Positions 2,661 through 58,815 of a stretch of DNA of 64,000 nucleotides are shown piece by piece; within the stretch, counting starts at the first letter, position 1; each line of letters opens with the position of its first letter. Made by a program: the position numbers and the translations under genes. The notes under the pieces are model-generated. The model did not search any database, was not told where the DNA came from, and saw nothing but the letters and a program-made list of their open reading frames with translations. The stretch comes from Ophiura sarsii (taxonomy: Eukaryota > Echinodermata > Ophiuroidea > Amphilepidida > Ophiuridae), in the NCBI GenBank assembly GCA_035610835.1, contig CM069449.1, positions 13,039,855 to 13,103,854 on the forward strand. Direction: 5' to 3'.

Positions 2661-3544
2661 TAATTGTCTTAGAAACCGCCGTTTTATTCTGCGTCGGCGA
2701 CTGACTTTAAACGCTTGTTTTGGAAACCCAAGCCAAATAAATTACTAGCGGAACAAATAGTACATGTAATAACAAAGAGTAAAGTCCATTGTTGCCATTC
2801 AACAAGGTCTGTGTTTGCAAACGAACCAGCCTTTACGATCCTAATGACCCCTAAGCCGCACTAAGACCCCGGTAGCTACACCGCTCCAAAACGCGTTGAC
2901 GAAAAACGACCGTCATTTTGGGATTTCGATTGTCGCACGCGAATATTGAACGGTACCAACCAAATTAATGGCATTCTTTTGGCATGTAATCATGCATGCA
3001 AACCCACGCCACGCTACCAGTGAATATACAACGATATTAACTGGTTAAAACACGCATGGGGCCCTATGGTATACGGTGTGTTACACCCACTACTTGAAAT
3101 GGCGCGTTGTTTGTGCCCAAATTCGGCAAAATGGCTTTGTCGTGAGAACATGATTTTACAACGAAACAAATATATATTTTTTGTATTGTAATTTTGCCAA
3201 GATATCATATAAATGTTGCATATATATCTCGCATTTACTGTACCGACAATAGCAGACTGTATAGACTCGACAGATGGCCCCTTAACCATTACTAACATGC
3301 CCTAACATTTGTGCCGTTTTTGGAGCAAATCGTTGTCGACAAAAAATGACATAACTATATATTATGTCCCACGAAAGTAAATGAAAATGAAAATATCAAA
3401 TTAATCTGATCAAAAGCATTAAACCTTGTTGATATAAATTGCTTGTTTTAGGCATATAAAGTATTAGCCATGTATAATACCTAGTCATATATCAATAGAC
3501 AATAGAGGCACGTGGATAATTTCCCGCCATCAGACCATGGAGAT

Positions 3545-4015
3545 GAGTACAATTTTGGCGCAAAAATTTGCCCGCCAGCGTCCTCGACAACAACAATATT
3601 CGACACACAACGAACTTGCTTACGAAAATATGTAAGGTCACTTAAGGGGGCGGGTACTGCCAGCTGTGTATAATATATGTTAATGACGTCTGCTTGATGC
3701 TAGCAGAGAAAATGGCGCAAAAATATACCAGCTACCCCGGGCAGCTAACACTCCTACTGATATTATACCGGCAGGGTGACGAACGTAAAAAGACTATGCC
3801 GAAACATCGTTATATTTGTAAAAAACTTGTCATCAAAAAATTATCTTAAATGTGAAGTCTATAAGAGAAAAGGAAAAAGCTTTCCCGCGTTATTTAGAGT
3901 AATGCGTTGTGCAAATGTACATTGTATAGGTTAACATGCACATAACGTCCCTTTAAATTTGACGTCAGCAAATATCGAGACTTACCCCTGTTAAAAAGGC
4001 GCCAAAATTACAACA
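3545..4015. promoter_or_regulatory. Cluster of E2F-like GGCGC motifs
   Basis: TTTTGGCGCAAAAA near 3552, ATGGCGCAAAAAT near 3713 and AGGCGCCAAAATT near 3999 match the E2F-type word TTTGGCGC in one or other orientation. No promoter, first exon or CpG island is recognisable next to them. They could equally be decayed relatives of the GCCGAATTTGGGC core upstream. Confidence 0.25.
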
Positions 4016-4610
4016 CTCCGCTCACTGGTAGCCGAACTATTTCCTTAATTTAAAGTTGATTCCAAAAATGAAAATTGTCATTCTTTTTGGCAAAATTGAT
4101 GTTCCTGCGCGACTGGTTACACGAAGCAATGGGCTTACGTCCAGAGAATATAAGCATAGATATATTATGCTGAGTGACGATAATGCAGATGGTAATTGAT
4201 TCAGTGACGATGTATGCCGGTGGTGGCGACAGCGTATGCGCAGATCGCCGTCGTCGTCATTGCCAATGCGGCGATGGATGACGAAAAAAAGTTTAAGAAA
4301 CAAGGATAAGCCGCTTTGGTTCTAAAGCTGTTTTAGACTTGCAAAAGTTGTAAGATATAAGATATTTAAATGCACGCGCCTTCAATGATGTAGGCTATCA
4401 TGATACACTATGCCGAGGCCGATATAAATAAAGAAACGAATACCTATCGATTACATGCATACATAATGACTTTTCGCTTGAATTTATTGAATTATGCCTT
4501 TCCATAAGAAGAGGTTAACAAAAATGTTTTAGAAGAAAAATGAGCTAAATTCTTTGATTTATTTTGAATTCTTATTGTGAATCAAAGACAATTTCTTAAT
4601 TCTATGTTAA

Positions 4611-4847
4611 CACTTTCCACGCGGCAGGCAGCTGCAGACGACTCCAAAATTTCACAAAATGTTTAAAAATGTCAAAATTATTGAATTTCATTAACATATT
4701 CAGAATCACCATGAGAAATGCATTGACATAAGTACAAACATGCCTAGTATTGGGTCAGTTATCCTTGAGATAGACCTTGAAAGTTGGGAAAGGTTTCTGA
4801 AAAAATATGTTTTGTGTATGGTACAAATAATAGCCGCGTGGAAAGTG
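4611..4847. mobile_element. MITE, TTAA target site, TIR CACTTTCCACGCGG
   Basis: This 237-bp element is bounded by perfect inverted CACTTTCCACGCGG and flanked by TTAA on both sides (4607-4610, 4848-4851). TTAA duplication is typical of piggyBac and Kolobok-type elements. It has no coding capacity. A second, inverted copy lies at 8879-9117 and shares the internal words. Confidence 0.85.
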
Positions 4848-4851
4848 TTAA

Positions 4852-6353
4852 TAAGAGTAGGCCTAAGCATTATGAATACCTAATTAGGATAAATTATCAC
4901 ATTTAAGACTGAGTGGCGTGTAACTTCAGTGCGTGCGTCGCCGAGCGAGTCGCCGAAAAGTGTCAAAGCATTTGAAAAAGGTGACAGTTTTATTCACAGT
5001 TTTATTTTGATGCATGTTGATGAAATGCCAATATATTATGTAGACTTTCAATTACCACACAACATCTTTAGCGGTATAAACAATGTATACATGCATAGGC
5101 CTAGGAATCACAGTGATTCATCGCCGAAGGTGTGAAATGGTGTAAAGTTTCAAAAACGATAGAAGATAATAAAGCGATCTTCACTTTAATTTACAGTTAA
5201 AAAAATATAAAACAGGTCTCGATTACATGCTTTACGATGTCATAAGGGTATAATATCATAATAAGTAGACCCTATCTTTCTATCTATTGACCACCGGTGG
5301 ACACCCTAAACAGCGGTAGGCTTCAAACTTTGTCAATTGTTGTGCATCATGTTGTGCATTGGGGTGTGTGCATCAACTTTGCCGACACGTGGTGGGTGAC
5401 ATAGTTTCAAAAATAAGATGACACGTTAACACTTTGTTTTAAAGTTTTAAAGACATTTAAGAGTATAATATACAAAGTTTTATATACAGCATATGGTATG
5501 TTGCTGGGTCTAAAGTGACATCTACTTACTGATGATTAAGGCGGGATATATATAGTTGCATTGTGGTCGCCGCGTCGCGGTGCCGGGATTTGACGCTGCC
5601 TGGGAAAAACAAGTTGACGGTCAGGTAGTTTCCAAATTGATTCAAAACAAATCATGGCATAACTGAATTTACAAATGCATGTACATGGCTCCATACACTA
5701 ACGTGTGATGTACAATAACGGAACTGTATGCCTATGTAAAGGGTGGTCCGGTGGTGATCATTGATTTCATGCATAATTAATAAATGTATTGTATAACTTG
5801 AAATGTAATGATTGCGTTTATAATCGAAATATTATCAGAACATCGAATGTTGCTCGACATAAGAAATCATCTGGGTTTTTTATAAACTTCAAATAATAAT
5901 AATAGAAAATATGAAGTTCATTTAGATTTTGATAAGATTTAAGATCCCGACCCTTATTTAGTTACCCGGGACCCTGTTACAGTACTTGCTGTATCATGAC
6001 TCCGACACTCACGCAAGCAAAGAGGGCAGCATTTGTTGTTGAAGTAGCACGCCCTCACTTGTCAAATCAATTGATTTTGAGTGTTATTAAAATATTGTAA
6101 GCTCAACCGAACCGTGAAAAAAAGTTGTTCCACAACATTTTTTAACTTAACTTCTATGAATACAAGTCCAGCCATACTTGAAGTGTTAGGTCTACACTTT
6201 ATTTTTCAAAATATATAAGGGTTGTCCAAACAATCAAAGCATAAGAGTTTTGAAGACTATTCAAATGTTATCTACTGAAGATAGCAATTTCTTTGATCTC
6301 ATGGAATCATTGTAAAACACTACATAAAAGGCCCTAAATGCCTAGATCTAATT
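4852..6353. other. AT-rich stretch with no recognised gene
   Basis: I see no gene, exon pair or RNA gene. A 50-bp segment at 6262-6315 (containing ATAGCAATTTCTTTGATCTC) recurs at 8194-8245, so at least part is dispersed repeat. Confidence 0.5.
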
Positions 6354-6376
6354 ACGGGACGCACTATTAGATACTC

Positions 6377-6407
<31 letters not shown>

Positions 6408-6731
6408 TGGAAGTTTTCATTAAAAAAACTTTGCCCACTACCAGGAAAAACAACAACTTTGCCCACGAACCTGAAAAGAAGAAAAAAAGAGTTGACCCAC
6501 TGCTGAGTAAAAAAAAAAAATCTGACTCACCCAACTTAATGTAAAGAAATACAGTAAAACCTTTAAAAAAAACCTTTGCCGCCTTTGCAAAAAGAAAAAG
6601 AAGAAAAAAAACCGCCAAAATTATTTTTTGCGGACTTAGGTGGCAAAAAAGAAAATCCGCCCGACCCCAACTTCCATGACCCCAACTTCCATGCCCCCCC
6701 CCCCCTCAAAACCAAATGGTGCGTCCCTAAG
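6354..6731. mobile_element. Probable MITE with GGGACGCAC ends and internal poly-G/poly-C
   Basis: The ends are imperfect inverted copies: GGGACGCACTATTAGAT on the left, and the complement of ATGGTGCGTCCCT on the right. Just inside them are a 28-nt G tract (6378-6405) and a matching C tract (about 6694-6705). No clear target duplication is visible. The interior is purine-rich on the plus strand; open frames there are compositional. Confidence 0.5.
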
Positions 6732-6734
6732 TGA

Positions 6735-8870
6735 CCCATTACGTTTCAAGTTGTATCACGTGCATAACATGTTGAATATGCAAATATATTTATCAGTCGC
6801 GTGATAGCTATGTTATTAATACCAGACTGTTACTAAATGAAGTCTATTTTTCCTAAAATTGATATTAAGGTAATGAATTTAAAAGTTTGTTTTCAAAATA
6901 ATATATTTGCTTAAAGAAATCAGTGCCGCCAAGTACCGACCGAATTTATTGGTATCTGAAATAACACTGGACTGCAATTTTATTATCATTTAATATTTAA
7001 GTGAAAGCGTTCTAAGGGTATAGTAGAAATGACTGTAAAAGATTATATGCAGTTAATAATGAGATATTAATTTTGACAATAAATTGTATTCAGATTCAGA
7101 ATACACCTCTTAGAATATTTTAAACACATTGATTGTTGTTGGCGGTATTTTAAAAATGTTTAAAAATAGATACTTGTTTCGAGTTTTAAATTGTTTAGTG
7201 ATAAAGAGCTGGTGAATAAAAATCATAACCATGATGTGCAATAACAGAAAAGGTATTTAAAAGGGGAAATTGAGTGTGAGATTTGACTGTTTTTCCTTAT
7301 TAAAGTCTGTAAAACAACACTGGGTTACATTGATAAGATTAAAGTCGTAACCTTCCTCAATCATGCATTGTGAGCGTATTTTAAACAGGAGTAACATGAT
7401 ATAAAATTAATGACAAGAACGACAAGGGCTATTTATAGATGGTGTGACCGGTGACGTCATGTATTTACAAATGGGACACCCTCTGTTGATTCCCTCCAGG
7501 CAGAATATACAGTAAAGTTAATGAAGACAACATGAAATTTCTTTCTAATGAATTGTAAAACTCATTTATTTTTAATTTTTTTTGTGAAATGCGATAGCTT
7601 ATAGCATTCCTAAGCAAGTTTAAAGACAGTTTTGATAACAATATGCTGTGACACCACAATCTAGTTAGAAAACCTGATCTGGCCTATGTAAACTATAGGA
7701 ACTCTTGCCCGGTGTGTTTTGTCTCAAATCAACAGAGGGCGTCCTAAATGTAAACAACGGTCACCTCATCTATATAATTCGGATGGAGTTGCAGGATGAA
7801 TGGACGCCGACGACAATAATTTTAACTTTAGCATTTTATGGTGTTACAAATTGCAATACAAATAATTGAATGCCTAAATATGGTAAATATTCCAAATGCC
7901 TACAATTTCTATAAATGATACGATTGAATGACTACCGAGTACGCAAATCAAATTGTTTGATTATGCCAATTTTGGTGGATTTAAATCCACATTATCATTA
8001 TCATAAAATAAGTTTTAGATAAACACGGTCCACGTGGAAAAATAGATAAGGAACTTATTCCGAATTTACATATTCCAATTGAGTTCAAAGTTGTTAACGG
8101 TTTACTGCAATAAGTTAAAATGATTAAAAGTCAAGTCAAAATAAATTGTTTGGTTGGCAAGCCTAATAATTATCACAAGCTTGTAGACTAATGCAAATGC
8201 TATCTACTAAATATAGCAATTTCTTTGATCTCATTGAATCCTCGTATTACTGTATCAAAAAACCAAAAAACTGGCGAACATAAAAATAACTAAAATTAAA
8301 TAAACATGGTGAAAAATATACTATTTTAGTTCAGATTTTCAAATTATGTTTCAAATACAAAGGAGAACATTAGTGTCATAAGTTCACTTGAAGATGCAAT
8401 TAATACTCAAAATCAAAACACATGCTTTAATTCCCTACATCCAAAACTTTCCAAAGAATATTCACAGGCCGGATTATGTAAACTTTTAATCATGTATCAT
8501 TCGAAAGTGACCTACAATCGGTAGGCATCACCAAACTAAATAGCTTAAAATGGTTCTGTATTACAAATTTGCATGAGCATTTCTTGCGCGGGTACCAATT
8601 TCAAATTTTCTGTCGGAACACATTATACTTTATCAAATTTTAGTTCCTGACATTGTTTTCTTCAGAAGATAACAATTTGCTTTATATTAACATTTGCGAA
8701 ACCAATCCTTAATTTGTTTTTATGTAGCCTAAGTCCTAAAATGTGATGAAGCCTACATATTATAGGAAAAGAATAAAATCTCGAAATAATGTTATTGTGA
8801 ATGTAATGTTAATGATATATTTTCATGAGTAGGAAGATAAGGCCAATAAAAAAGATCTGTCTCACATTCA
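6735..8870. other. AT-rich stretch with no recognised gene
   Basis: Nothing here is supported as coding or as a structured RNA. The only repeat seen is the 50-bp word at 8194-8245, shared with 6262-6315. Confidence 0.5.
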
Positions 8871-28457: not shown

Positions 28458-28576
28458 GTTTGTCACCCTTGAGTGACCCCAGGGCCGTAAGACACTTTTT
28501 TCAAAGGGGGGGCGTTTTCAAAAAAAAATCACGAGATTTTTTTGAGTCAAATATGCGCGCGTAGCGCGCGAAAATT

Positions 28577-28676
28577 NNNNNNNNNNNNNNNNNNNNNNNN
28601 NNNNNNNNNNNNNNNNNNNNNNNNNNNNNNNNNNNNNNNNNNNNNNNNNNNNNNNNNNNNNNNNNNNNNNNNNNNN
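28577..28676. other. Assembly gap (100 N)
   Basis: 100 N just after the palindrome GCGCGCGTAGCGCGCG, a likely cause of assembly failure. Confidence 0.99.
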
Positions 28677-28950
28677 AAATATGGTTTTATCTTGGTCACA
28701 CAAGTGGTTATTTGTCGGGAAATGTACTTGAAATAGTGAAACAATATGATCGCATAAATATGTTAGAAAATGGGCCTGATTGCCATTCGACAAAATAGGC
28801 AATTTCGCGTTATTTTCTTTATTGTCATAACTGTATTGAAAATGCATGTAAACGCTATGATAGAAAAGTTGATTCAACACATGGCACGCATGTATCATGA
28901 CGTACAAGCGTGATTGTCTTATTGTGATTGGTTTAACTACTAGAGATCAT
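28677..28950. repeat. Dispersed repeat, copy 1
   Basis: AAATATGGTTTTATCTTGGTC through TTGTGATTGG matches 57576-57845 along its length at roughly 85-90% by eye. The left part lies in the gap. Superfamily not determined. Confidence 0.8.
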
Positions 28951-34035: not shown

Positions 34036-34326
34036 TAGCTGCCGGGTTGACTTTAGCAAAATAAACAATTTGAGTGATTGTGATTTTTCTGAAATTCATC
34101 AGAATAATACTTCTATATTTGTTTTGAATACAATTTGAAATAGAAAAGTTAAGCAATTGTAATGTACGCATTTCAACACTAATTGTATCAAAGTGAACAA
34201 TTCAATCAAATAAAAACACCATGCTCTGTCTACAATGTGTGTAAGCTTAGACTTCTATTAGCTATTTAGTCGTGTGTGATGTGTGACCATTGAATTATGT
34301 GCAAGCCTAAAAAATCAACAAATCTT

Positions 34327-35300
34327 ATACACAAAAATAAGAAAACAAAACAAAACAAAGTAACCTTATAATCCATGATTCAAAGATATAGCCTTTTCCA
34401 AGTGACGGACTGGTCTCAATTTTCTTAAACTTGTGCGCATGCTTTGGTTTAAATCTTGAGGGAGCACACAACTAAATAGGTCTCGCGACATGCTATCGAC
34501 GCGATCAATCAAAGTTGAGTACGACAATAGTTACTATTTGGCGGGAAAGAGAGTTATTTTTGGACGGTTTATGATATAATTTTTCACTAATATGTTGTGT
34601 TTGAAATGTGTAGTTGATGTTCTGACATTTAAACTAGGTGATTTGAGGTCAATTTTAATTTCACGGACCGATTTACACATGCGGTAATATCCAGACCGGA
34701 GACCAAATTTAGGTAGGCATATCACTACGTTGTTATGCGGCGGCTTATATCAAAAAAAGTGCGCGGTAATGTCTCCTTCATATTCAGATATGTTGTAGAT
34801 AACCCTTGTGAGTATACACAAAAATAAGAAAACAAAACAAAACAAAGTAACCTTATAATCCATGATTCAAAGATATAGCCTTTTCCAAGTGACGGACTGG
34901 TCTCAATTTTCTTAAACTTGTGCGCATGCTTTGGTTTAAATCTTGAGGGAGCACACAACTAAATAGGTCTCGCGACATGCTATCGACGCGATCAATCAAA
35001 GTTGAGTACGACAATAGTTACTATTTGGCGGGAAAGAGAGTTATTTTTGGACGGTTTATGATATAATTTTTCACTAATATGTTGTGTTTGAAATGTGTAG
35101 TTGATGTTCTGACATTTAAACTAGGTGATTTGAGGTCAATTTTAATTTCACAGACCGATTTACACATGCGGTAATATCCAGACCGGAGACCAAATTTAGG
35201 TAGGCATATCACTACGTTGTTATGCGGCGGCTTATATCAAAAAAAAGTGTGCGGTAATGTCTCCTTCATATTCAGATATGTTGTAGATAACCCTTGTGAG
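34327..35300. repeat. 487-bp tandem duplication
   Basis: 34327-34813 and 34814-35300 are nearly identical; I noticed one or two substitutions (for example CGGACC vs CAGACC) and one extra A. Near-identity means a recent event or an assembly duplication. No gene is recognisable in the unit. Confidence 0.9.
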
Positions 35301-36518
35301 TAAAACATATCAAAATCTCATTGAACCAAACGCACTAATATAGAAACTAGAGCCATTTAAGTAAGCCTTTCCTAACAGTAAAGTCTATGGAGAGCGTCTT
35401 GGTGTTGTGCTCCCTTAATTATAGGACCAGGTTCCCGATCTCCCGCGTGCTTCGTTCCATTTTAGGTGTATTACACAATGCAATAAATAAAAGTCGGGTT
35501 TCACCCAAATCTATGCGTTTTGATATCTACTGGGCAGTGTATTTATGGCATAGGCCAACATTGTCCGGTTTAAAAAACAGGGGGGGGAGGGCATGTGGTT
35601 GCTCTATTTTATACAAAACCAGGCGTTATTTCAGTGATGTGTTATAGGTGGGTTAGGTCGACATAATCAGAGACTGATCAAAATCAAAATCAGTTGAATT
35701 TGAGACAAAAAGGTTTAATTTTAAGAGTGTAGGCCTAACAATTCAAAGCGTGCCGCGTCCAGAGTCAAAAGTTACAGGCAAAGTTACTGTAATCTAAACA
35801 GCATATGCCACTTCTGTTAATGTTATTTGGAGCCTTTAACGGGCACTGCCCTGATTTAGAAACCCATTGAAAACACACGCAAAAATTCTGCGAAATTTTT
35901 TATTTTCTAACTGCTATAAAAGAAAACGGGGATCAACGAAAAACCCGTTGTTTCGAAATCTATATAAATAAAAGGACGAATGTAAATCTTGTCCGCGAGT
36001 GTTCTCAGAGATGCCTTGACTTTCAACTCTGATTTTTGCGTACATTGATTGAGTACATATTGCCATTAAACCATTGGACACTAATTTTTGCAAAACTATT
36101 CAATTACTATGGAAATAACCAAAAAAACAGGTCGGTTGCTATGATTCACGTCTTCTATTCTTACCTCATGAAACTGGCCAACGCATGCGCATACCGCCGT
36201 TGGTGGAGCTGTTGCGGAGACAGGGAGGTAGCTACATGGGCGGGGTGGCATGGGAGACATGAACTTACTAAATTTAGGCAAATTGTTGATTTCTCTTGGC
36301 CGTTATCCAATAGACGAAAAACGACTTTCATACAACGATCCTGGGTTGCTACGTGTAGTGGTCGTTACTACTGTAACAACTACTGTAACAGCTGCTTGAC
36401 GTGGCAAGTATATGTACGCAAGAGCGATGCGTGCAAGTAATTAGTCTATGGTTGGCCACGCAACACTCCGCTACGCGATGGCCGGTCGTCACGCGTCACA
36501 CACGCGTAACAGACCTGT

Positions 36519-37206: not shown

Positions 37207-37496
37207 CAGTGGTTCTCAACCTTTTTGCCCCACTACCCCTTTTGACATTCCTGGTCAGTACCGTGACCCCCAAAAACAAAAATTGAAAAAAGAAACCAGC
37301 CGGATATCATAAATGAAACTGCTTAGTTTGGATGTGAGCGTAGCGAGCAGGAAATTTTGCATATTTGAACGTTTCTTTTGGGTTTTCTAAGCTTTTTTTA
37401 AAGCGAAATGTAGCACAGTTCCCCCAAAACCTATATTCACGAGCCCCTTATGACCCCCTGGAAAACCCCAAACGACCCCCAGGTTGAGAACCCCTG
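37207..37496. mobile_element. hAT-type MITE, TIR CAGTGGTTCTCAACC
   Basis: The ends are CAGTGGTTCTCAACC and GGTTGAGAACCCCTG, flanked by CCATAAAT at 37199-37206 and 37497-37504 (8 bp). These termini are a familiar hAT/Charlie-like signature. The element is 290 bp and non-coding. Confidence 0.9.
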
Positions 37497-38160
37497 CCAT
37501 AAATGATCATGATGAGAGCTCCGACCATTGGCCCGCCGACTAATACAACTAAAAGGCACACTATAAAAAAACTAAGTCCCTATGCTCTTCCTAATGAATT
37601 CCCGACTGATTCACGTGTACCTGGATATACAATATGCACATGGGGTAGGCCTATCTTGATAAGAGCATCTATCTGTGATGTGGATTCTAAGGGTGAATTG
37701 GATGGGGTAAGGCCATAAAGATCTGGATTGCAGATTATCATAAATGAAACTGCTTAGTTTGGATGTGAGCGTAGCGAGCAGGAAATTTTGCATATTTGAA
37801 CGTTTCTTTTGGGTTTTCTAAGCTTTTTTAAAGCGAAATGTAGCACAGTTCCCCCAAAACCTATATTCACAAGCCCCTCATGACCCCCTGGAAAACCCCA
37901 AATGACCCCCAGGTTGAACCCCTGCCATAAATGATCATGATGAGAGCTCCGACCATTGGCCCGCCGACTAATACAACTAAAAGGCACACTATAAAAAAAC
38001 TAAGTCCCTATGCGCTTCCTAATAAATTCCCGACTGATTCACGTGTACCTGGATATACAATATGCACATGCGGTAGGCCTATCTTGATAAGGGCATCTAT
38101 CTGTGATGTGGATTCTAAGGGTGAATTGGATATGGGGTAAGGCCATAAAGATCTGGATTG
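37308..38160. repeat. 428-bp tandem duplication including half of the hAT MITE
   Basis: ATCATAAATGAAACTGCTTA begins both units, at 37308 and 37736. Each has the right half of the hAT MITE and the following 240 bp of flank. The duplication therefore came after the MITE insertion. Confidence 0.9.
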
Positions 38161-38169
38161 CAGATTTGC

Positions 38170-38320: not shown

Positions 38321-39260
38321 TAGTGTCGGAGGTACAAAATATCATTGGTTGTGTCGTGTTTTTACAAGGAAAATATGACAGGGGGTCATGAAATTAATAC
38401 CATTGTAATGGGAGGGGGGGGGAACAAGATCTATAGGGGGCATAGGCCTGATTAGTTTCTTAACCCGATGCTAAATGCAACAAAATTCAACAAAACTGAG
38501 CACCGCACCGCACCGCAATTATGGTAGTACACAACATAGACCTCGAAAAGTTATTTGGGAGCGTGACCCCTGAGCATTATTCACGCTCACCGACATCCGC
38601 ACACATCATTGTGTCATTATTTGTCCCGGTGTCCTCTCCCGTTATAGCTTTATTGCTAGAATACACCCCCATCCCAAATGGGTACGGGTTATTGAGCCCC
38701 ACGTTGAGAGCGCAACCCCAGCCCAGCGAGATGCCCGATCACCTACTTGGACTCCGGCTCAACGTGGCCATCCTCGGGGCGGCAGACACAATTTTTTGTG
38801 TCATTATTTGTTCCGTATTTAACGCTTTAGGATACCCCCATGATCAAGTACCTGATTATCAAGGGCATAGGGCCCCCTTCAGTTGCGTGCGCAAAGTGCG
38901 GTTTTTTTGACCGTGCGATATTTTTTGAACCCACCCACACTTACGTGAAATTCACAAAAAAATGTGGGGCTATACCTTTTACTTTTTTTGGGTACATCCG
39001 GGGAATTGAGAAGACTCTGAGTCGGGGGAATTTCACTCACAATATCCTGCGCACTCCCGGACTGGGCCCCTTGATTATTAATGGCACATGGTATGTTATG
39101 GATTATTTTAGGGGGCTGTCATTTTCTTCGTTAAGGGGGCCAGGGTCGGAGGTACCAAATATCATTGGAGGTGTCGTGTTTTTACACGGAAAATAGGGGG
39201 GAGGGGTGGTCATGAAATAAATACCATTGTCAGGGGGGGGGGGGGGGGGGGGGGGGGGGG
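38321..39260. repeat. Diverged direct repeats ending in poly-G
   Basis: GTCGGAGGTAC.AAATATCATT through ATACCATTGT plus a G run occurs at 38325-38418 and again at 39147-39260, the second with 28 G (39233-39260). The segment around 38590-38830 also resembles 36880-37030 (GTGTCATTATTTGT.CCG). No gene is supported. Confidence 0.6.
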
Positions 39261-46748: not shown

Positions 46749-46758
46749 TAGTTTATTA
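46749..46758 (+). repeat. Target-site duplication, left copy
   Basis: TAGTTTATTA, identical to 55361-55370 and directly outside both TIR tips. Two more bases (TA) match but could belong to the TIR. Confidence 0.8.
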
Positions 46759-49700
46759 TATAATAATGTTTTATATCATATATATAATATAATATAAAGC
46801 AGTTTACCAACCCACGGTGTTTACAATAGACAATGTAACAAACAAATAATAACAACCACCGGCGAATGTCCCAACGAAAAATAAGCAAGGACATCCACCG
46901 GCGGGGATTTGAACCCCGGTCTCCCGATCTCTAGACGGGCGCCTTCACCACTAGGCCACCGATAACTTGCTGATAAACGGCAATTTGAATCAGTGCTAAG
47001 TGAATAAGCGACGGGGTTATACAATACACACAGCACGATAACATGAGACATTTGGCCAAACACAGTAGGGATCACAAACGTGATGACAAGAGGAAACTGA
47101 ATAAATAAATCATATAATAATGTTTTATATCATATATATAATATAATATAAAGCAGTTTACCAACCCACGGTGTTTACAATAGACAATGTAACAAACAAA
47201 TAATAACAACCACCGGCGAATGTCCCAACGAAAAATAAGCAAGGACATCCACCGGCGGGGATTTGAACCCCGGTCTCCCGATCTCTAGACGGGCGCCTTC
47301 ACCACTAGGCCACCGATAACTTGCTGATAAACGGCAATTTGAATCAGTGCTAAGTGAATAAGCGACGGGGTTATACAATACACACAGCACGATAACATGA
47401 GACATTTGGCCAAACACAGTAGGGATCACAAACGTGATGACAAGAGGAAACTGAATAAATAAATCATATAATAATGTTTTATATCATATATATAATATAA
47501 TATAAAGCAGTTTACCAACCCACGGTGTTTACAATAGACAATGTAACAAACAAATAATAACAACCACCGGCGAATGTCCCAACGAAAAATAAGCAAGGAC
47601 ATCCACCGGCGGGGATTTGAACCCCGGTCTCCCGATCTCTAGACGGGCGCCTTCACCACTAGGCCACCGATAACTTGCTGATAAACGGCAATTTGAATCA
47701 GTGCTAAGTGAATAAGCGACGGGGTTATACAATACACACAGCACGATAACATGAGACATTTGGCCAAACACAGTAGGGATCACAAACGTGATGACAAGAG
47801 GAAACTGAATAAATAAATCATATAATAATGTTTTATATCATATATATAATATAATATAAAGCAGTTTACCAACCCACGGTGTTTACAATAGACAATGTAA
47901 CAAACAAATAATAACAACCACCGGCGAATGTCCCAACGAAAAATAAGCAAGGACATCCACCGGCGGGGATTTGAACCCCGGTCTCCCGATCTCTAGACGG
48001 GCGCCTTCACCACTAGGCCACCGATAACTTGCTGATAAACGGCAATTTGAATCAGTGCTAAGTGAATAAGCGACGGGGTTATACAATACACACAGCACGA
48101 TAACATGAGACATTTGGCCAAACACAGTAGGGATCACAAACGTGATGACAAGAGGAAACTGAATAAATAAATCATATAATAATGTTTTATATCATATATA
48201 TAATATAATATAAAGCAGTTTACCAACCCACGGTGTTTACAATAGACAATGTAACAAACAAATAATAACAACCACCGGCGAATGTCCCAACGAAAAATAA
48301 GCAAGGACATCCACCGGCGGGGATTTGAACCCCGGTCTCCCGATCTCTAGACGGGCGCCTTCACCACTAGGCCACCGATAACTTGCTGATAAACGGCAAT
48401 TTGAATCAGTGCTAAGTGAATAAGCGACGGGGTTATACAATACACACAGCACGATAACATGAGACATTTGGCCAAACACAGTAGGGATCACAAACGTGAT
48501 GACAAGAGGAAACTGAATAAATAAATCATATAATAATGTTTTATATCATATATATAATATAATATAAAGCAGTTTACCAACCCACGGTGTTTACAATAGA
48601 CAATGTAACAAACAAATAATAACAACCACCGGCGAATGTCCCAACGAAAAATAAGCAAGGACATCCACCGGCGGGGATTTGAACCCCGGTCTCCCGATCT
48701 CTAGACGGGCGCCTTCACCACTAGGCCACCGATAACTTGCTGATAAACGGCAATTTGAATCAGTGCTAAGTGAATAAGCGACGGGGTTATACAATACACA
48801 CAGCACGATAACATGAGACATTTGGCCAAACACAGTAGGGATCACAAACGTGATGACAAGAGGAAACTGAATAAATAAATCATATAATAATGTTTTATAT
48901 CATATATATAATATAATATAAAGCAGTTTACCAACCCACGGTGTTTACAATAGACAATGTAACAAACAAATAATAACAACCACCGGCGAATGTCCCAACG
49001 AAAAATAAGCAAGGACATCCACCGGCGGGGATTTGAACCCCGGTCTCCCGATCTCTAGACGGGCGCCTTCACCACTAGGCCACCGATAACTTGCTGATAA
49101 ACGGCAATTTGAATCAGTGCTAAGTGAATAAGCGACGGGGTTATACAATACACACAGCACGATAACATGAGACATTTGGCCAAACACAGTAGGGATCACA
49201 AACGTGATGACAAGAGGAAACTGAATAAATAAATCATATAATAATGTTTTATATCATATATATAATATAATATAAAGCAGTTTACCAACCCACGGTGTTT
49301 ACAATAGACAATGTAACAAACAAATAATAACAACCACCGGCGAATGTCCCAACGAAAAATAAGCAAGGACATCCACCGGCGGGGATTTGAACCCCGGTCT
49401 CCCGATCTCTAGACGGGCGCCTTCACCACTAGGCCACCGATAACTTGCTGATAAACGGCAATTTGAATCAGTGCTAAGTGAATAAGCGACGGGGTTATAC
49501 AATACACACAGCACGATAACATGAGACATTTGGCCAAACACAGTAGGGATCACAAACGTGATGACAAGAGGAAACTGAATAAATAAATCATATAATAATG
49601 TTTTATATCATATATATAATATAATATAAAGCAGTTTACCAACCCACGGTGTTTACAATAGACAATGTAACAAACAAATAATAACAACCACCGGCGAATG

Positions 49701-52700
49701 TCCCAACGAAAAATAAGCAAGGACATCCACCGGCGGGGATTTGAACCCCGGTCTCCCGATCTCTAGACGGGCGCCTTCACCACTAGGCCACCGATAACTT
49801 GCTGATAAACGGCAATTTGAATCAGTGCTAAGTGAATAAGCGACGGGGTTATACAATACACACAGCACGATAACATGAGACATTTGGCCAAACACAGTAG
49901 GGATCACAAACGTGATGACAAGAGGAAACTGAATAAATAAATCATATAATAATGTTTTATATCATATATATAATATAATATAAAGCAGTTTACCAACCCA
50001 CGGTGTTTACAATAGACAATGTAACAAACAAATAATAACAACCACCGGCGAATGTCCCAACGAAAAATAAGCAAGGACATCCACCGGCGGGGATTTGAAC
50101 CCCGGTCTCCCGATCTCTAGACGGGCGCCTTCACCACTAGGCCACCGATAACTTGCTGATAAACGGCAATTTGAATCAGTGCTAAGTGAATAAGCGACGG
50201 GGTTATACAATACACACAGCACGATAACATGAGACATTTGGCCAAACACAGTAGGGATCACAAACGTGATGACAAGAGGAAACTGAATAAATAAATCATA
50301 TAATAATGTTTTATATCATATATATAATATAATATAAAGCAGTTTACCAACCCACGGTGTTTACAATAGACAATGTAACAAACAAATAATAACAACCACC
50401 GGCGAATGTCCCAACGAAAAATAAGCAAGGACATCCACCGGCGGGGATTTGAACCCCGGTCTCCCGATCTCTAGACGGGCGCCTTCACCACTAGGCCACC
50501 GATAACTTGCTGATAAACGGCAATTTGAATCAGTGCTAAGTGAATAAGCGACGGGGTTATACAATACACACAGCACGATAACATGAGACATTTGGCCAAA
50601 CACAGTAGGGATCACAAACGTGATGACAAGAGGAAACTGAATAAATAAATCATATAATAATGTTTTATATCATATATATAATATAATATAAAGCAGTTTA
50701 CCAACCCACGGTGTTTACAATAGACAATGTAACAAACAAATAATAACAACCACCGGCGAATGTCCCAACGAAAAATAAGCAAGGACATCCACCGGCGGGG
50801 ATTTGAACCCCGGTCTCCCGATCTCTAGACGGGCGCCTTCACCACTAGGCCACCGATAACTTGCTGATAAACGGCAATTTGAATCAGTGCTAAGTGAATA
50901 AGCGACGGGGTTATACAATACACACAGCACGATAACATGAGACATTTGGCCAAACACAGTAGGGATCACAAACGTGATGACAAGAGGAAACTGAATAAAT
51001 AAATCATATAATAATGTTTTATATCATATATATAATATAATATAAAGCAGTTTACCAACCCACGGTGTTTACAATAGACAATGTAACAAACAAATAATAA
51101 CAACCACCGGCGAATGTCCCAACGAAAAATAAGCAAGGACATCCACCGGCGGGGATTTGAACCCCGGTCTCCCGATCTCTAGACGGGCGCCTTCACCACT
51201 AGGCCACCGATAACTTGCTGATAAACGGCAATTTGAATCAGTGCTAAGTGAATAAGCGACGGGGTTATACAATACACACAGCACGATAACATGAGACATT
51301 TGGCCAAACACAGTAGGGATCACAAACGTGATGACAAGAGGAAACTGAATAAATAAATCATATAATAATGTTTTATATCATATATATAATATAATATAAA
51401 GCAGTTTACCAACCCACGGTGTTTACAATAGACAATGTAACAAACAAATAATAACAACCACCGGCGAATGTCCCAACGAAAAATAAGCAAGGACATCCAC
51501 CGGCGGGGATTTGAACCCCGGTCTCCCGATCTCTAGACGGGCGCCTTCACCACTAGGCCACCGATAACTTGCTGATAAACGGCAATTTGAATCAGTGCTA
51601 AGTGAATAAGCGACGGGGTTATACAATACACACAGCACGATAACATGAGACATTTGGCCAAACACAGTAGGGATCACAAACGTGATGACAAGAGGAAACT
51701 GAATAAATAAATCATATAATAATGTTTTATATCATATATATAATATAATATAAAGCAGTTTACCAACCCACGGTGTTTACAATAGACAATGTAACAAACA
51801 AATAATAACAACCACCGGCGAATGTCCCAACGAAAAATAAGCAAGGACATCCACCGGCGGGGATTTGAACCCCGGTCTCCCGATCTCTAGACGGGCGCCT
51901 TCACCACTAGGCCACCGATAACTTGCTGATAAACGGCAATTTGAATCAGTGCTAAGTGAATAAGCGACGGGGTTATACAATACACACAGCACGATAACAT
52001 GAGACATTTGGCCAAACACAGTAGGGATCACAAACGTGATGACAAGAGGAAACTGAATAAATAAATCATATAATAATGTTTTATATCATATATATAATAT
52101 AATATAAAGCAGTTTACCAACCCACGGTGTTTACAATAGACAATGTAACAAACAAATAATAACAACCACCGGCGAATGTCCCAACGAAAAATAAGCAAGG
52201 ACATCCACCGGCGGGGATTTGAACCCCGGTCTCCCGATCTCTAGACGGGCGCCTTCACCACTAGGCCACCGATAACTTGCTGATAAACGGCAATTTGAAT
52301 CAGTGCTAAGTGAATAAGCGACGGGGTTATACAATACACACAGCACGATAACATGAGACATTTGGCCAAACACAGTAGGGATCACAAACGTGATGACAAG
52401 AGGAAACTGAATAAATAAATCATATAATAATGTTTTATATCATATATATAATATAATATAAAGCAGTTTACCAACCCACGGTGTTTACAATAGACAATGT
52501 AACAAACAAATAATAACAACCACCGGCGAATGTCCCAACGAAAAATAAGCAAGGACATCCACCGGCGGGGATTTGAACCCCGGTCTCCCGATCTCTAGAC
52601 GGGCGCCTTCACCACTAGGCCACCGATAACTTGCTGATAAACGGCAATTTGAATCAGTGCTAAGTGAATAAGCGACGGGGTTATACAATACACACAGCAC

Positions 52701-55254
52701 GATAACATGAGACATTTGGCCAAACACAGTAGGGATCACAAACGTGATGACAAGAGGAAACTGAATAAATAAATCATATAATAATGTTTTATATCATATA
52801 TATAATATAATATAAAGCAGTTTACCAACCCACGGTGTTTACAATAGACAATGTAACAAACAAATAATAACAACCACCGGCGAATGTCCCAACGAAAAAT
52901 AAGCAAGGACATCCACCGGCGGGGATTTGAACCCCGGTCTCCCGATCTCTAGACGGGCGCCTTCACCACTAGGCCACCGATAACTTGCTGATAAACGGCA
53001 ATTTGAATCAGTGCTAAGTGAATAAGCGACGGGGTTATACAATACACACAGCACGATAACATGAGACATTTGGCCAAACACAGTAGGGATCACAAACGTG
53101 ATGACAAGAGGAAACTGAATAAATAAATCATATAATAATGTTTTATATCATATATATAATATAATATAAAGCAGTTTACCAACCCACGGTGTTTACAATA
53201 GACAATGTAACAAACAAATAATAACAACCACCGGCGAATGTCCCAACGAAAAATAAGCAAGGACATCCACCGGCGGGGATTTGAACCCCGGTCTCCCGAT
53301 CTCTAGACGGGCGCCTTCACCACTAGGCCACCGATAACTTGCTGATAAACGGCAATTTGAATCAGTGCTAAGTGAATAAGCGACGGGGTTATACAATACA
53401 CACAGCACGATAACATGAGACATTTGGCCAAACACAGTAGGGATCACAAACGTGATGACAAGAGGAAACTGAATAAATAAATCATATAATAATGTTTTAT
53501 ATCATATATATAATATAATATAAAGCAGTTTACCAACCCACGGTGTTTACAATAGACAATGTAACAAACAAATAATAACAACCACCGGCGAATGTCCCAA
53601 CGAAAAATAAGCAAGGACATCCACCGGCGGGGATTTGAACCCCGGTCTCCCGATCTCTAGACGGGCGCCTTCACCACTAGGCCACCGATAACTTGCTGAT
53701 AAACGGCAATTTGAATCAGTGCTAAGTGAATAAGCGACGGGGTTATACAATACACACAGCACGATAACATGAGACATTTGGCCAAACACAGTAGGGATCA
53801 CAAACGTGATGACAAGAGGAAACTGAATAAATAAATCATATAATAATGTTTTATATCATATATATAATATAATATAAAGCAGTTTACCAACCCACGGTGT
53901 TTACAATAGACAATGTAACAAACAAATAATAACAACCACCGGCGAATGTCCCAACGAAAAATAAGCAAGGACATCCACCGGCGGGGATTTGAACCCCGGT
54001 CTCCCGATCTCTAGACGGGCGCCTTCACCACTAGGCCACCGATAACTTGCTGATAAACGGCAATTTGAATCAGTGCTAAGTGAATAAGCGACGGGGTTAT
54101 ACAATACACACAGCACGATAACATGAGACATTTGGCCAAACACAGTAGGGATCACAAACGTGATGACAAGAGGAAACTGAATAAATAAATCATATAATAA
54201 TGTTTTATATCATATATATAATATAATATAAAGCAGTTTACCAACCCACGGTGTTTACAATAGACAATGTAACAAACAAATAATAACAACCACCGGCGAA
54301 TGTCCCAACGAAAAATAAGCAAGGACATCCACCGGCGGGGATTTGAACCCCGGTCTCCCGATCTCTAGACGGGCGCCTTCACCACTAGGCCACCGATAAC
54401 TTGCTGATAAACGGCAATTTGAATCAGTGCTAAGTGAATAAGCGACGGGGTTATACAATACACACAGCACGATAACATGAGACATTTGGCCAAACACAGT
54501 AGGGATCACAAACGTGATGACAAGAGGAAACTGAATAAATAAATCATATAATAATGTTTTATATCATATATATAATATAATATAAAGCAGTTTACCAACC
54601 CACGGTGTTTACAATAGACAATGTAACAAACAAATAATAACAACCACCGGCGAATGTCCCAACGAAAAATAAGCAAGGACATCCACCGGCGGGGATTTGA
54701 ACCCCGGTCTCCCGATCTCTAGACGGGCGCCTTCACCACTAGGCCACCGATAACTTGCTGATAAACGGCAATTTGAATCAGTGCTAAGTGAATAAGCGAC
54801 GGGGTTATACAATACACACAGCACGATAACATGAGACATTTGGCCAAACACAGTAGGGATCACAAACGTGATGACAAGAGGAAACTGAATAAATAAATCA
54901 TATAATAATGTTTTATATCATATATATAATATAATATAAAGCAGTTTACCAACCCACGGTGTTTACAATAGACAATGTAACAAACAAATAATAACAACCA
55001 CCGGCGAATGTCCCAACGAAAAATAAGCAAGGACATCCACCGGCGGGGATTTGAACCCCGGTCTCCCGATCTCTAGACGGGCGCCTTCACCACTAGGCCA
55101 CCGATAACTTGCTGATAAACGGCAATTTGAATCAGTGCTAAGTGAATAAGCGACGGGGTTATACAATACACACAGCACGATAACATGAGACATTTGGCCA
55201 AACACAGTAGGGATCACAAACGTGATGACAAGAGGAAACTGAATAAATAAATCA
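46759..55254 (-). repeat. Tandem array, 354 bp x 24
   Basis: The period is exactly 354 and all 24 units read as identical. Layout on the plus strand: left-TIR copy (about 94 bp), a short spacer, an inverted tRNA-like sequence, then about 180 bp ending GAATAAATAAATCA. Each unit has an 84-codon minus-strand frame that runs through the tRNA-like segment and is not a credible protein gene. Complete homogeneity points to very recent expansion, concerted evolution, or consensus collapse during assembly. Confidence 0.97.
46894..46965 (-). tRNA. tRNA-like gene, first of 24 (apparent anticodon AGA)
   Basis: Read on minus, 72 nt fold as a cloverleaf. Acceptor TTATCGG/CCGGTGG (three G-T pairs), D arm GCC-TAGTGGTGAA-GGC, anticodon arm CCCGT-CTAGAGA-TCGGG (one T-T mismatch), 4-nt variable loop, T arm CGGGG-TTCAAAT-CCCCG, discriminator A. 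The box A word TGGCCTAGTGGT and box B word GGTTCAAATCC match RNA polymerase III promoters. The anticodon reads AGA (Ser), but the long variable arm of tRNA-Ser is absent. No clear T run follows within the first bases. More likely a tRNA-derived sequence than a working tRNA. Copies recur every 354 bp; the last is 55036-55107. Confidence 0.6.
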
Positions 55255-55360
55255 TATAATAATGTTTTATTATTTGTTTGTTATATTGTCTATTGTAAAC
55301 ACCGTGGGTTGGTAAACTGCTTTATATTATATTATATATATGATATAAAACATTATTATA

Positions 55361-55370
55361 TAGTTTATTA
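55361..55370 (+). repeat. Target-site duplication, right copy
   Basis: TAGTTTATTA directly after the right TIR tip, matching 46749-46758. Confidence 0.8.

Positions 55371-58781: not shown

Positions 58782-58815
<34 letters not shown>
58782..58815 (+). repeat. 34-nt poly-G tract
   Basis: The longest homopolymer in the window, within the last intron. Length is probably unreliable for sequencing. Confidence 0.9.

Follow-up and report, generated by a model that had tools for sequence, protein, structure and literature searches.

What kind of element holds 24 identical tRNA-bearing units between the two copies of one short duplication? The question is raised by positions 46759–55360 of a 64,000-nucleotide stretch of the Ophiura sarsii genome (GenBank assembly GCA_035610835.1, contig CM069449.1, positions 13,039,855 to 13,103,854 of the forward strand), hereafter called the window. 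A sequence-only reading had taken this locus for a Mutator-like element or a miniature inverted-repeat transposable element (MITE) that had acquired a tRNA-derived unit and expanded it internally. Following the unit through the 1.57 Gb genome, we arrive at a different reading, which we regard as probable: the locus would be an insertion of a non-coding retroposon of about 354 nucleotides with a tRNA-Ser-like domain, whose arrays are copied from a single template, presumably a circle, by an enzyme that is presumably Penelope-like.

The window element and its family

The exact 354-bp direct repeats were confirmed by TRF, which gives a period of 354 with 24.0 copies and a 100% match at 46758–55270. 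The main arm of the element (46759–55270, minus strand) contains 24 identical units (46759–55254) followed by 16 nt of a 25th. Unit positions q1 to q354 are counted from 46759; since the RNA sense is the minus strand, q1 is the 3′ end of the RNA, and the arm has this fixed 3′ end at 46759. ARAGORN finds 24 tRNA-Ser(AGA)-like genes, one in each of the 24 units and all on the minus strand. In unit 1 the tRNA-like sequence (q136–207, minus strand) lies at 46894–46965, and it recurs every 354 bp up to 55036–55107, each window unit scoring 52.9 bits in Rfam against a cut-off of 29. Among three units of the common type that were scanned, two reach 57.9 bits in this domain, above the window variant, and the third, with a private change, 49.1 bits. 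The A and B boxes that the sequence-only reading had placed in each unit are read off the tRNA match and form a putative RNA polymerase III (Pol III) promoter. Just downstream of the tRNA-like sequence, each unit carries a T5 run (46877–46881 in unit 1, minus strand; read as AAAAA on the plus strand) that may act as a Pol III stop and sits in the loop of a 17-bp hairpin predicted in the fold of the family's commonest unit. The GC content of the unit is 40%.

The second arm (55264–55360, plus strand) is an inverted copy of unit positions 1–98, running from q98 to q1 and thus truncated, with a single gap at the junction. Alignment of the arms places a 7-bp overlap of both arm ends, a microhomology joint, at 55264–55270. 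The 10-bp target-site duplication TAGTTTATTA, already seen in the letters, brackets the whole element, its left copy at 46749–46758 matching its right copy at 55361–55370. This structure of repeats, inverted end and duplication is far beyond chance. As for the 94-bp terminal inverted repeats (TIRs) of the sequence-only reading, they are real as sequence, but they form no separate module and are simply the unit's own end, inverted. Nor do they make a matching pair: the left end carries the substitution A77G and the inverted piece lacks it, so the haplotypes differ.

Genome searches returned 337 matches to the unit (from 38 scored of 467 first-look candidates) and 40 matches to the end piece (from 40 scored of 67 candidates). 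The latter lie on many contigs, so the end sequence is not confined to the window, and many copies elsewhere have target duplications, in agreement with the earlier view of a mobile, non-autonomous, tRNA-bearing element. An exact 35-base unit–unit junction occurs 843 times genome-wide (401 + 442), the reversed control giving 0. We read 20 loci with flanks, plus stretches of L053, of L054 with L061, of L055 and of a locus at C1:40.03 Mb (L062, L063); J32 and J44 denote L032 and L044 when completed, and J54 denotes L054 with L061. The fully read loci are the best-scoring matches to the window unit, so that insertions of variant units alone are under-represented, and C1:40.03 Mb was chosen from the junction list for its odd spacing. 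L053 and L055, cut at one end, were excluded from the stop and duplication counts. All unit counts depend on the assembly, in which array collapse or polishing errors are possible.

Variants within and between arms

Variants were defined against the commonest unit, which accounts for 83 of the 112 full-length units in 20 loci, and were classed according to whether they occur in all units of an arm that cover the site, in one unit, or in an intermediate number; only matches of at least 25 bp and above 94% identity entered the count. Across 33 arms with 205 full units, 11 variants are arm-wide, 35 are confined to a single unit, 5 are uninformative and none is intermediate. In addition, the arm-wide variants extend through the first unit and through the truncated last unit at the junction. 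Because variants are either arm-wide or single-unit and never intermediate, this pattern supports the repeated copying of each arm from a single template molecule. Mixed-template jumping is rejected by the same spectrum, and the internal expansion after capture that had been proposed gives way to arrays each made from one template.

Nine of the 24 loci have two arms (the window, J32, J44, J54, L033, L034, L038, L043 and L048), and in five of them (the window, J32, J44, J54 and L043) the arms differ in haplotype. Compared with the commonest family unit, the window main arm has A77G, T137C and A188C in 24/24 units, and the inverted arm is without A77G, the sole main-arm variant within its reach. 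An arm variant is found in 16/16 units versus 0/3 in the other arm of J44, and in 6/6 versus 0/10 at J32, while a substitution and an insertion mark 9/9 units of one J54 arm versus 0/8 of the other. Under random mixing of units between arms, such separation in five loci has P = 3.5e-14. To judge by these haplotypes, the two arms of one insertion are often from different molecules. The haplotypes can also be private to an array: the exact 73-base pattern of the window haplotype has 24 genome matches, 24/24 in the window array, and the 9 genome matches of the J54 haplotype all lie within its own arm. Within the first 100 of the 843 junctions, which come from 21 loci on C1 and a part of C2, the arm at C1:40.03 Mb has 11/11 spacings of 353, and the three units read there all have the five differences that all of them cover.

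Two arms weigh against copying from a single template. In the plus-strand arm of L048, the haplotype switches at the third unit to that of the other arm; we read this change as a template switch, and it was tallied as a single-unit variant. The arm at C1:47308606, with 2 of 15 spacings at 356, is an intermediate case.

Insertion ends and target sites

In the loci read with flanks, the outer end of the array is q1 as a rule. L037, L053 and J54 start instead at q3, and at C1:40.03 Mb the end lies 2 nt beyond q1, the extra letters being those of the next unit. At its far end, the array is either truncated within a unit or joined to an inverted arm that likewise starts at q1, and the two arms meet through a 3- or 7-bp overlap, directly, or across 1–35 bp of filler. 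The start of synthesis is at q1 even at targets without matching letters. Exact duplications of 7–13 bp were found at 17 of the 21 loci with both ends visible, few-base shifts of the ends being allowed, and at 19 of 23 when C1:40.03 Mb (duplication ACTTACAAAGG) and J54 (duplication CAATTTACATG) are included. Target-primed reverse transcription, as established for long interspersed nuclear elements (LINEs) and Penelope-like elements, is recognised by a constant 3′ end combined with truncation at the 5′ end. By this mark, the mode of insertion is target-primed reverse transcription. At L043 an empty site is available for comparison, since a neighbouring satellite copy is identical to the joined flanks over 289/289 positions, with a single copy of the duplication. 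On the other side of the balance, the outer end of L041 is altered and matches only from q13, and no exact duplication of at least 7 bp was found in 4 of the 23 loci (L031, L035, L041 and L046), L046 having a possible 6-bp duplication, TGTTAC.

The target sites share a motif. GTT or GTC lies within 5 bases to the right of the duplication at 13 of 17 sites (8.8% expected), and the complementary triplet lies to the left at 10 of 17 (8.3% expected). RAC/GTY is present on both sides at 7 of 17 sites, versus a background of 0.67%. Such a dyad suits an enzyme by which both strands are cut and both are primed.

Several loci hold other repeats. In L043, satellite-like repeats with many related units (201–1658 and 3185–7001) lie around the insertion. 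L033 was considered as a second empty site and dropped, as 12 bp are missing at the critical place. Related Helitron-like inserts are found in L034 (4751–7809) and L042 (3096–5417), both at q30–38 of two different arrays and 94–99% alike over their main matching parts; each has a hairpin followed by a CTAG end, which we take to be a Helitron-like signature, and a palindromic stretch of about 760 bp is found in addition within the L034 insert. In L041 (1457–3640), flank and array were duplicated in tandem after the insertion, with 99.9% identity over 761 bp.

Template, enzyme and rival explanations

Arm ends fall at q136–168 in 10 of 31 cases versus 2.9 expected (scan probability 0.02). For an enzyme coming from the 3′ side, this is the acceptor and T-arm portion of the tRNA domain. 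Stops clustered in the tRNA domain are expected of a reverse transcriptase stalling on folded tRNA. Given that up to 24 rounds were made on one molecule, a circle is the simplest template, and the template is probably a circular RNA of one unit. The end found 2 nt beyond q1 at C1:40.03 Mb suggests that the template continues past q1. When closed, the unit has a predicted fold of −98.3 kcal/mol, versus −77.5 ± 5.5 kcal/mol for 60 shuffles. A number of points speak against the circle or weaken its support. The antisense fold (−78.3 versus −56.7 ± 4.6 kcal/mol) is at least as unusual, so the fold says little on the strand used. The two letters past q1 come from a single locus and could be due to chance, and the stop in the unit would make Pol III transcripts shorter than the whole unit. 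Both the stop-cluster region and the target motif were chosen after looking.

No ribozyme was found with Rfam (E ≤ 10) on either strand of window units or of consensus-type units, an unlisted ribozyme type being possible, and the CUGANGA core is absent from both strands of the closed unit; on these grounds we reject the presence of a ribozyme of the hammerhead or another Rfam type in the unit. A genome search for Hammerhead_1 gave 0 matches, but also 0 in control genomes, and is uninformative.

On the enzyme side, GIY-YIG domains look abundant and partly intact in the genome: 149 matches were obtained from 150 scored of 1,426 candidates, many with identical scores, and several lie in long open frames of up to 1,128 codons. 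One such 1,128-codon frame, with its GIY-YIG domain at C9:71139622–71139867, serves as an example of a frame with a reverse transcriptase. In the 651 bases read, all open, RVT_1 is matched with an E value of 3.4e-7 and 30.6 bits versus 29.6 required, 457 codons upstream of the GIY-YIG domain in the same frame, the stretch between them being unread. The same piece gave two chance-level matches in a PDB sequence search (E 0.67 and 0.98) and 0 matches in NCBIfam. Among the 149 matches there are seven GIY-YIG pairs less than 10 kb apart, and 7/7 are back to back (minus, then plus), which turns their 3′ ends outward, just as in the two-armed tRNA elements.

The insertion geometry matches Penelope-like mobilisation, with both strands primed at one internal site and short, variable duplications. 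According to the available text, an Anolis Penelope-like protein, when purified, cuts both DNA strands and extends each of them, and its synthesis begins at one set position within the RNA without a match to the target (PMC11167929); rotifer Penelope copies are likewise described with inverted ends and 8–10 bp duplications, one copy being without any (available text of PMC3846280). Penelope-like mobilisation would thus fit the dyad motif, the two-strand priming and the fixed internal start. Two points count against it: the sites favoured by the Anolis enzyme are AT-rich ATT sites (available text of PMC11167929), unlike the GTY motif of the present targets, and the assignment rests on geometry, not on a sequence tie to a particular element.

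Taken together, the element would enter at a staggered break, with 7–13 nt duplicated; DNA synthesis would start from the fixed RNA point q1 and proceed for 1.5 to more than 20 rounds; this would happen on one side of the break or on both, so that the insertion has a single arm or a pair of inverted arms; and each arm would use a single template molecule. These steps are supported by the sequences. The template would be a circular one-unit RNA, the enzyme a Penelope-like reverse transcriptase/GIY-YIG endonuclease that cuts, primes both strands and starts internally, and the finished strands may be joined via short overlaps. More speculatively, no known self-cleaving ribozyme would be needed to make the circle, and host tRNA-processing enzymes might cut and ligate at the tRNA-like domain. 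The full scheme, in which the tRNA-like domain of a retroposon without a ribozyme serves as a handle for a host-sealed circle and a Penelope-like enzyme copies two circles, one per side of the break, so that the arm haplotypes record the templates, is a tentative proposal that we do not expect to hold in every part.

Other routes from RNA to array have to be weighed. LINEs are known to be truncated or inverted at the 5′ end and to make duplications of variable length, and a LINE-type enzyme with twin priming might move the RNA; both arms start at the same fixed RNA position, however, and the dyad target fits cutting and priming of both strands, so that we consider a LINE-type enzyme unlikely. 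A linear monomer with its 3′ end at q1 could also serve, if the enzyme, each time it reached the 5′ end, resumed at the 3′ end of that molecule. This would account for starts at q1 where the target has no matching letters and for 843 junctions exact over 35 bases, but it would require as many as 24 passes over one molecule, each joined to the next without added letters, and the locus that starts 2 nt past q1 with the next unit's letters, unless due to chance, is out of keeping with it; we judge this route distinctly unlikely. Arrays might instead beget arrays, long multimeric transcripts of uniform arrays being reverse transcribed. Multi-copy Penelope-like transcripts are proposed in the available text of PMC11167929, and the arm-wide G58T is common to J32 and J54. 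In contrast, none of the 35 single-unit variants in 33 arms is common to loci, except for two that adjoin the Helitron-like inserts in L034 and L042; no variant occupies several but not all units of an arm; the window haplotype is without a source array elsewhere in the genome; and the first origin of a uniform array is left unexplained. Such a route is very unlikely.

Explanations at the level of DNA fare worse. Uniform arrays would equally be expected of a DNA circle copied by rolling circle and then inserted, but the template would rather be RNA, given the fixed start on both sides of an endonuclease-like site and the stops clustered within the folded tRNA domain, and we hold the DNA circle to be highly improbable. 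Later expansion is a common fate of tandem repeats, and a short insertion enlarged by unequal crossing-over or slippage would find some support in the later duplication of flank and array at L041 and in the arm where 2 of 15 spacings are 356. Unequal crossing-over, like frequent jumps from one RNA molecule to another, is expected to leave many intermediate variants, though, and 33 arms have 0; arm-wide variants run through first and truncated last units, and the arms keep separate haplotypes. We find such expansion scarcely credible. Taken by itself, the copy in the window, with its inverted ends and 10-bp duplication, looks like a cut-and-paste transposon with TIRs. Across the family, five loci (L036, L045, L047, L049 and L050) show the duplication without any inverted repeat, and the truncation point of one end differs from copy to copy. 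A TIR transposon is excluded because some copies with a duplication have only one q1 end, and we leave it virtually no chance; with it falls the Mutator-like or MITE identity, which would call for inverted repeats on every copy and a constant duplication length. Across loci, the duplications measure anything from 7 to 13 bp.

By analogy, metazoan retrozymes that lack long terminal repeats are the nearest known kind. In the available text of PMC7229834, their tandem units measure 150–450 bp (354 bp here), with a GC content below 50% (40% here), from dimers to large multimers, and their duplications exceed 4 bp; copying of circular RNA into tandem cDNA is proposed, with a Penelope-like enzyme suspected. 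The retrozyme circle is freed by a hammerhead, whereas here a tRNA-like domain is found instead of an Rfam ribozyme, and two arms with separate haplotypes at a dyad target are not among the retrozyme features given there (PMC7229834). Lacking a type I hammerhead, the unit fails the defining test of a retrozyme despite its retrozyme-like working. With Penelope-like elements it shares tandem and inverted copies, two-strand cutting and priming, and fixed internal initiation, as far as the available texts describe them (PMC11167929, PMC3846280). Unlike these elements, the 354-bp unit is non-coding, with no reverse transcriptase/GIY-YIG frame inside. tRNA-derived short interspersed nuclear elements (SINEs) have a tRNA-like part with promoter boxes, are non-coding, and show variable duplications and 5′ truncation. 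The present unit resembles them in its tRNA-like sequence with putative internal Pol III boxes. It differs in its multi-unit, not single-unit, insertions within one duplication, with long head-to-tail one-template arrays, inverted second arms and a possible internal Pol III stop. The Schistosoma W-elements are also satellite-like and transcribed, some resembling the SINE-like SMalpha, and one has a putative target duplication; in the available text, 'hammerhead' occurs 17 times and 'tRNA' 0 times (PMC8490949). In the open literature, as covered by titles and the starts of abstracts with most subscription journals outside the search, no such element was found described.

Retrozyme spread has so far been a model, in which circular RNA is copied into tandem DNA, possibly by target priming (available text of PMC7229834). 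Here the genome keeps a record of the copying, in variants that mark the template, are exact through an arm and change at the arm junction. If our reading is true, the circular-RNA route needs no hammerhead ribozyme, synthesis from the two sides of one break can use separate RNA molecules, and tRNA-like units are multiplied many times in one insertion. For any satellite, comparing arm-wide with single-unit variants offers a simple test of one-template copying against later expansion.

Elsewhere in the window, two-copy tandem repeats of 487 and 428 bp, 97–99% alike, lie at 34326–35302 and 37305–38166; no flanking duplication of at least 9 bp was found for either. The open frames listed with X stretches at 184–642 and 28518–28907 correspond to runs of N. 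Pure poly-G runs of 28–34 bases occur at 6378–6405, 39233–39260 and 58782–58815.

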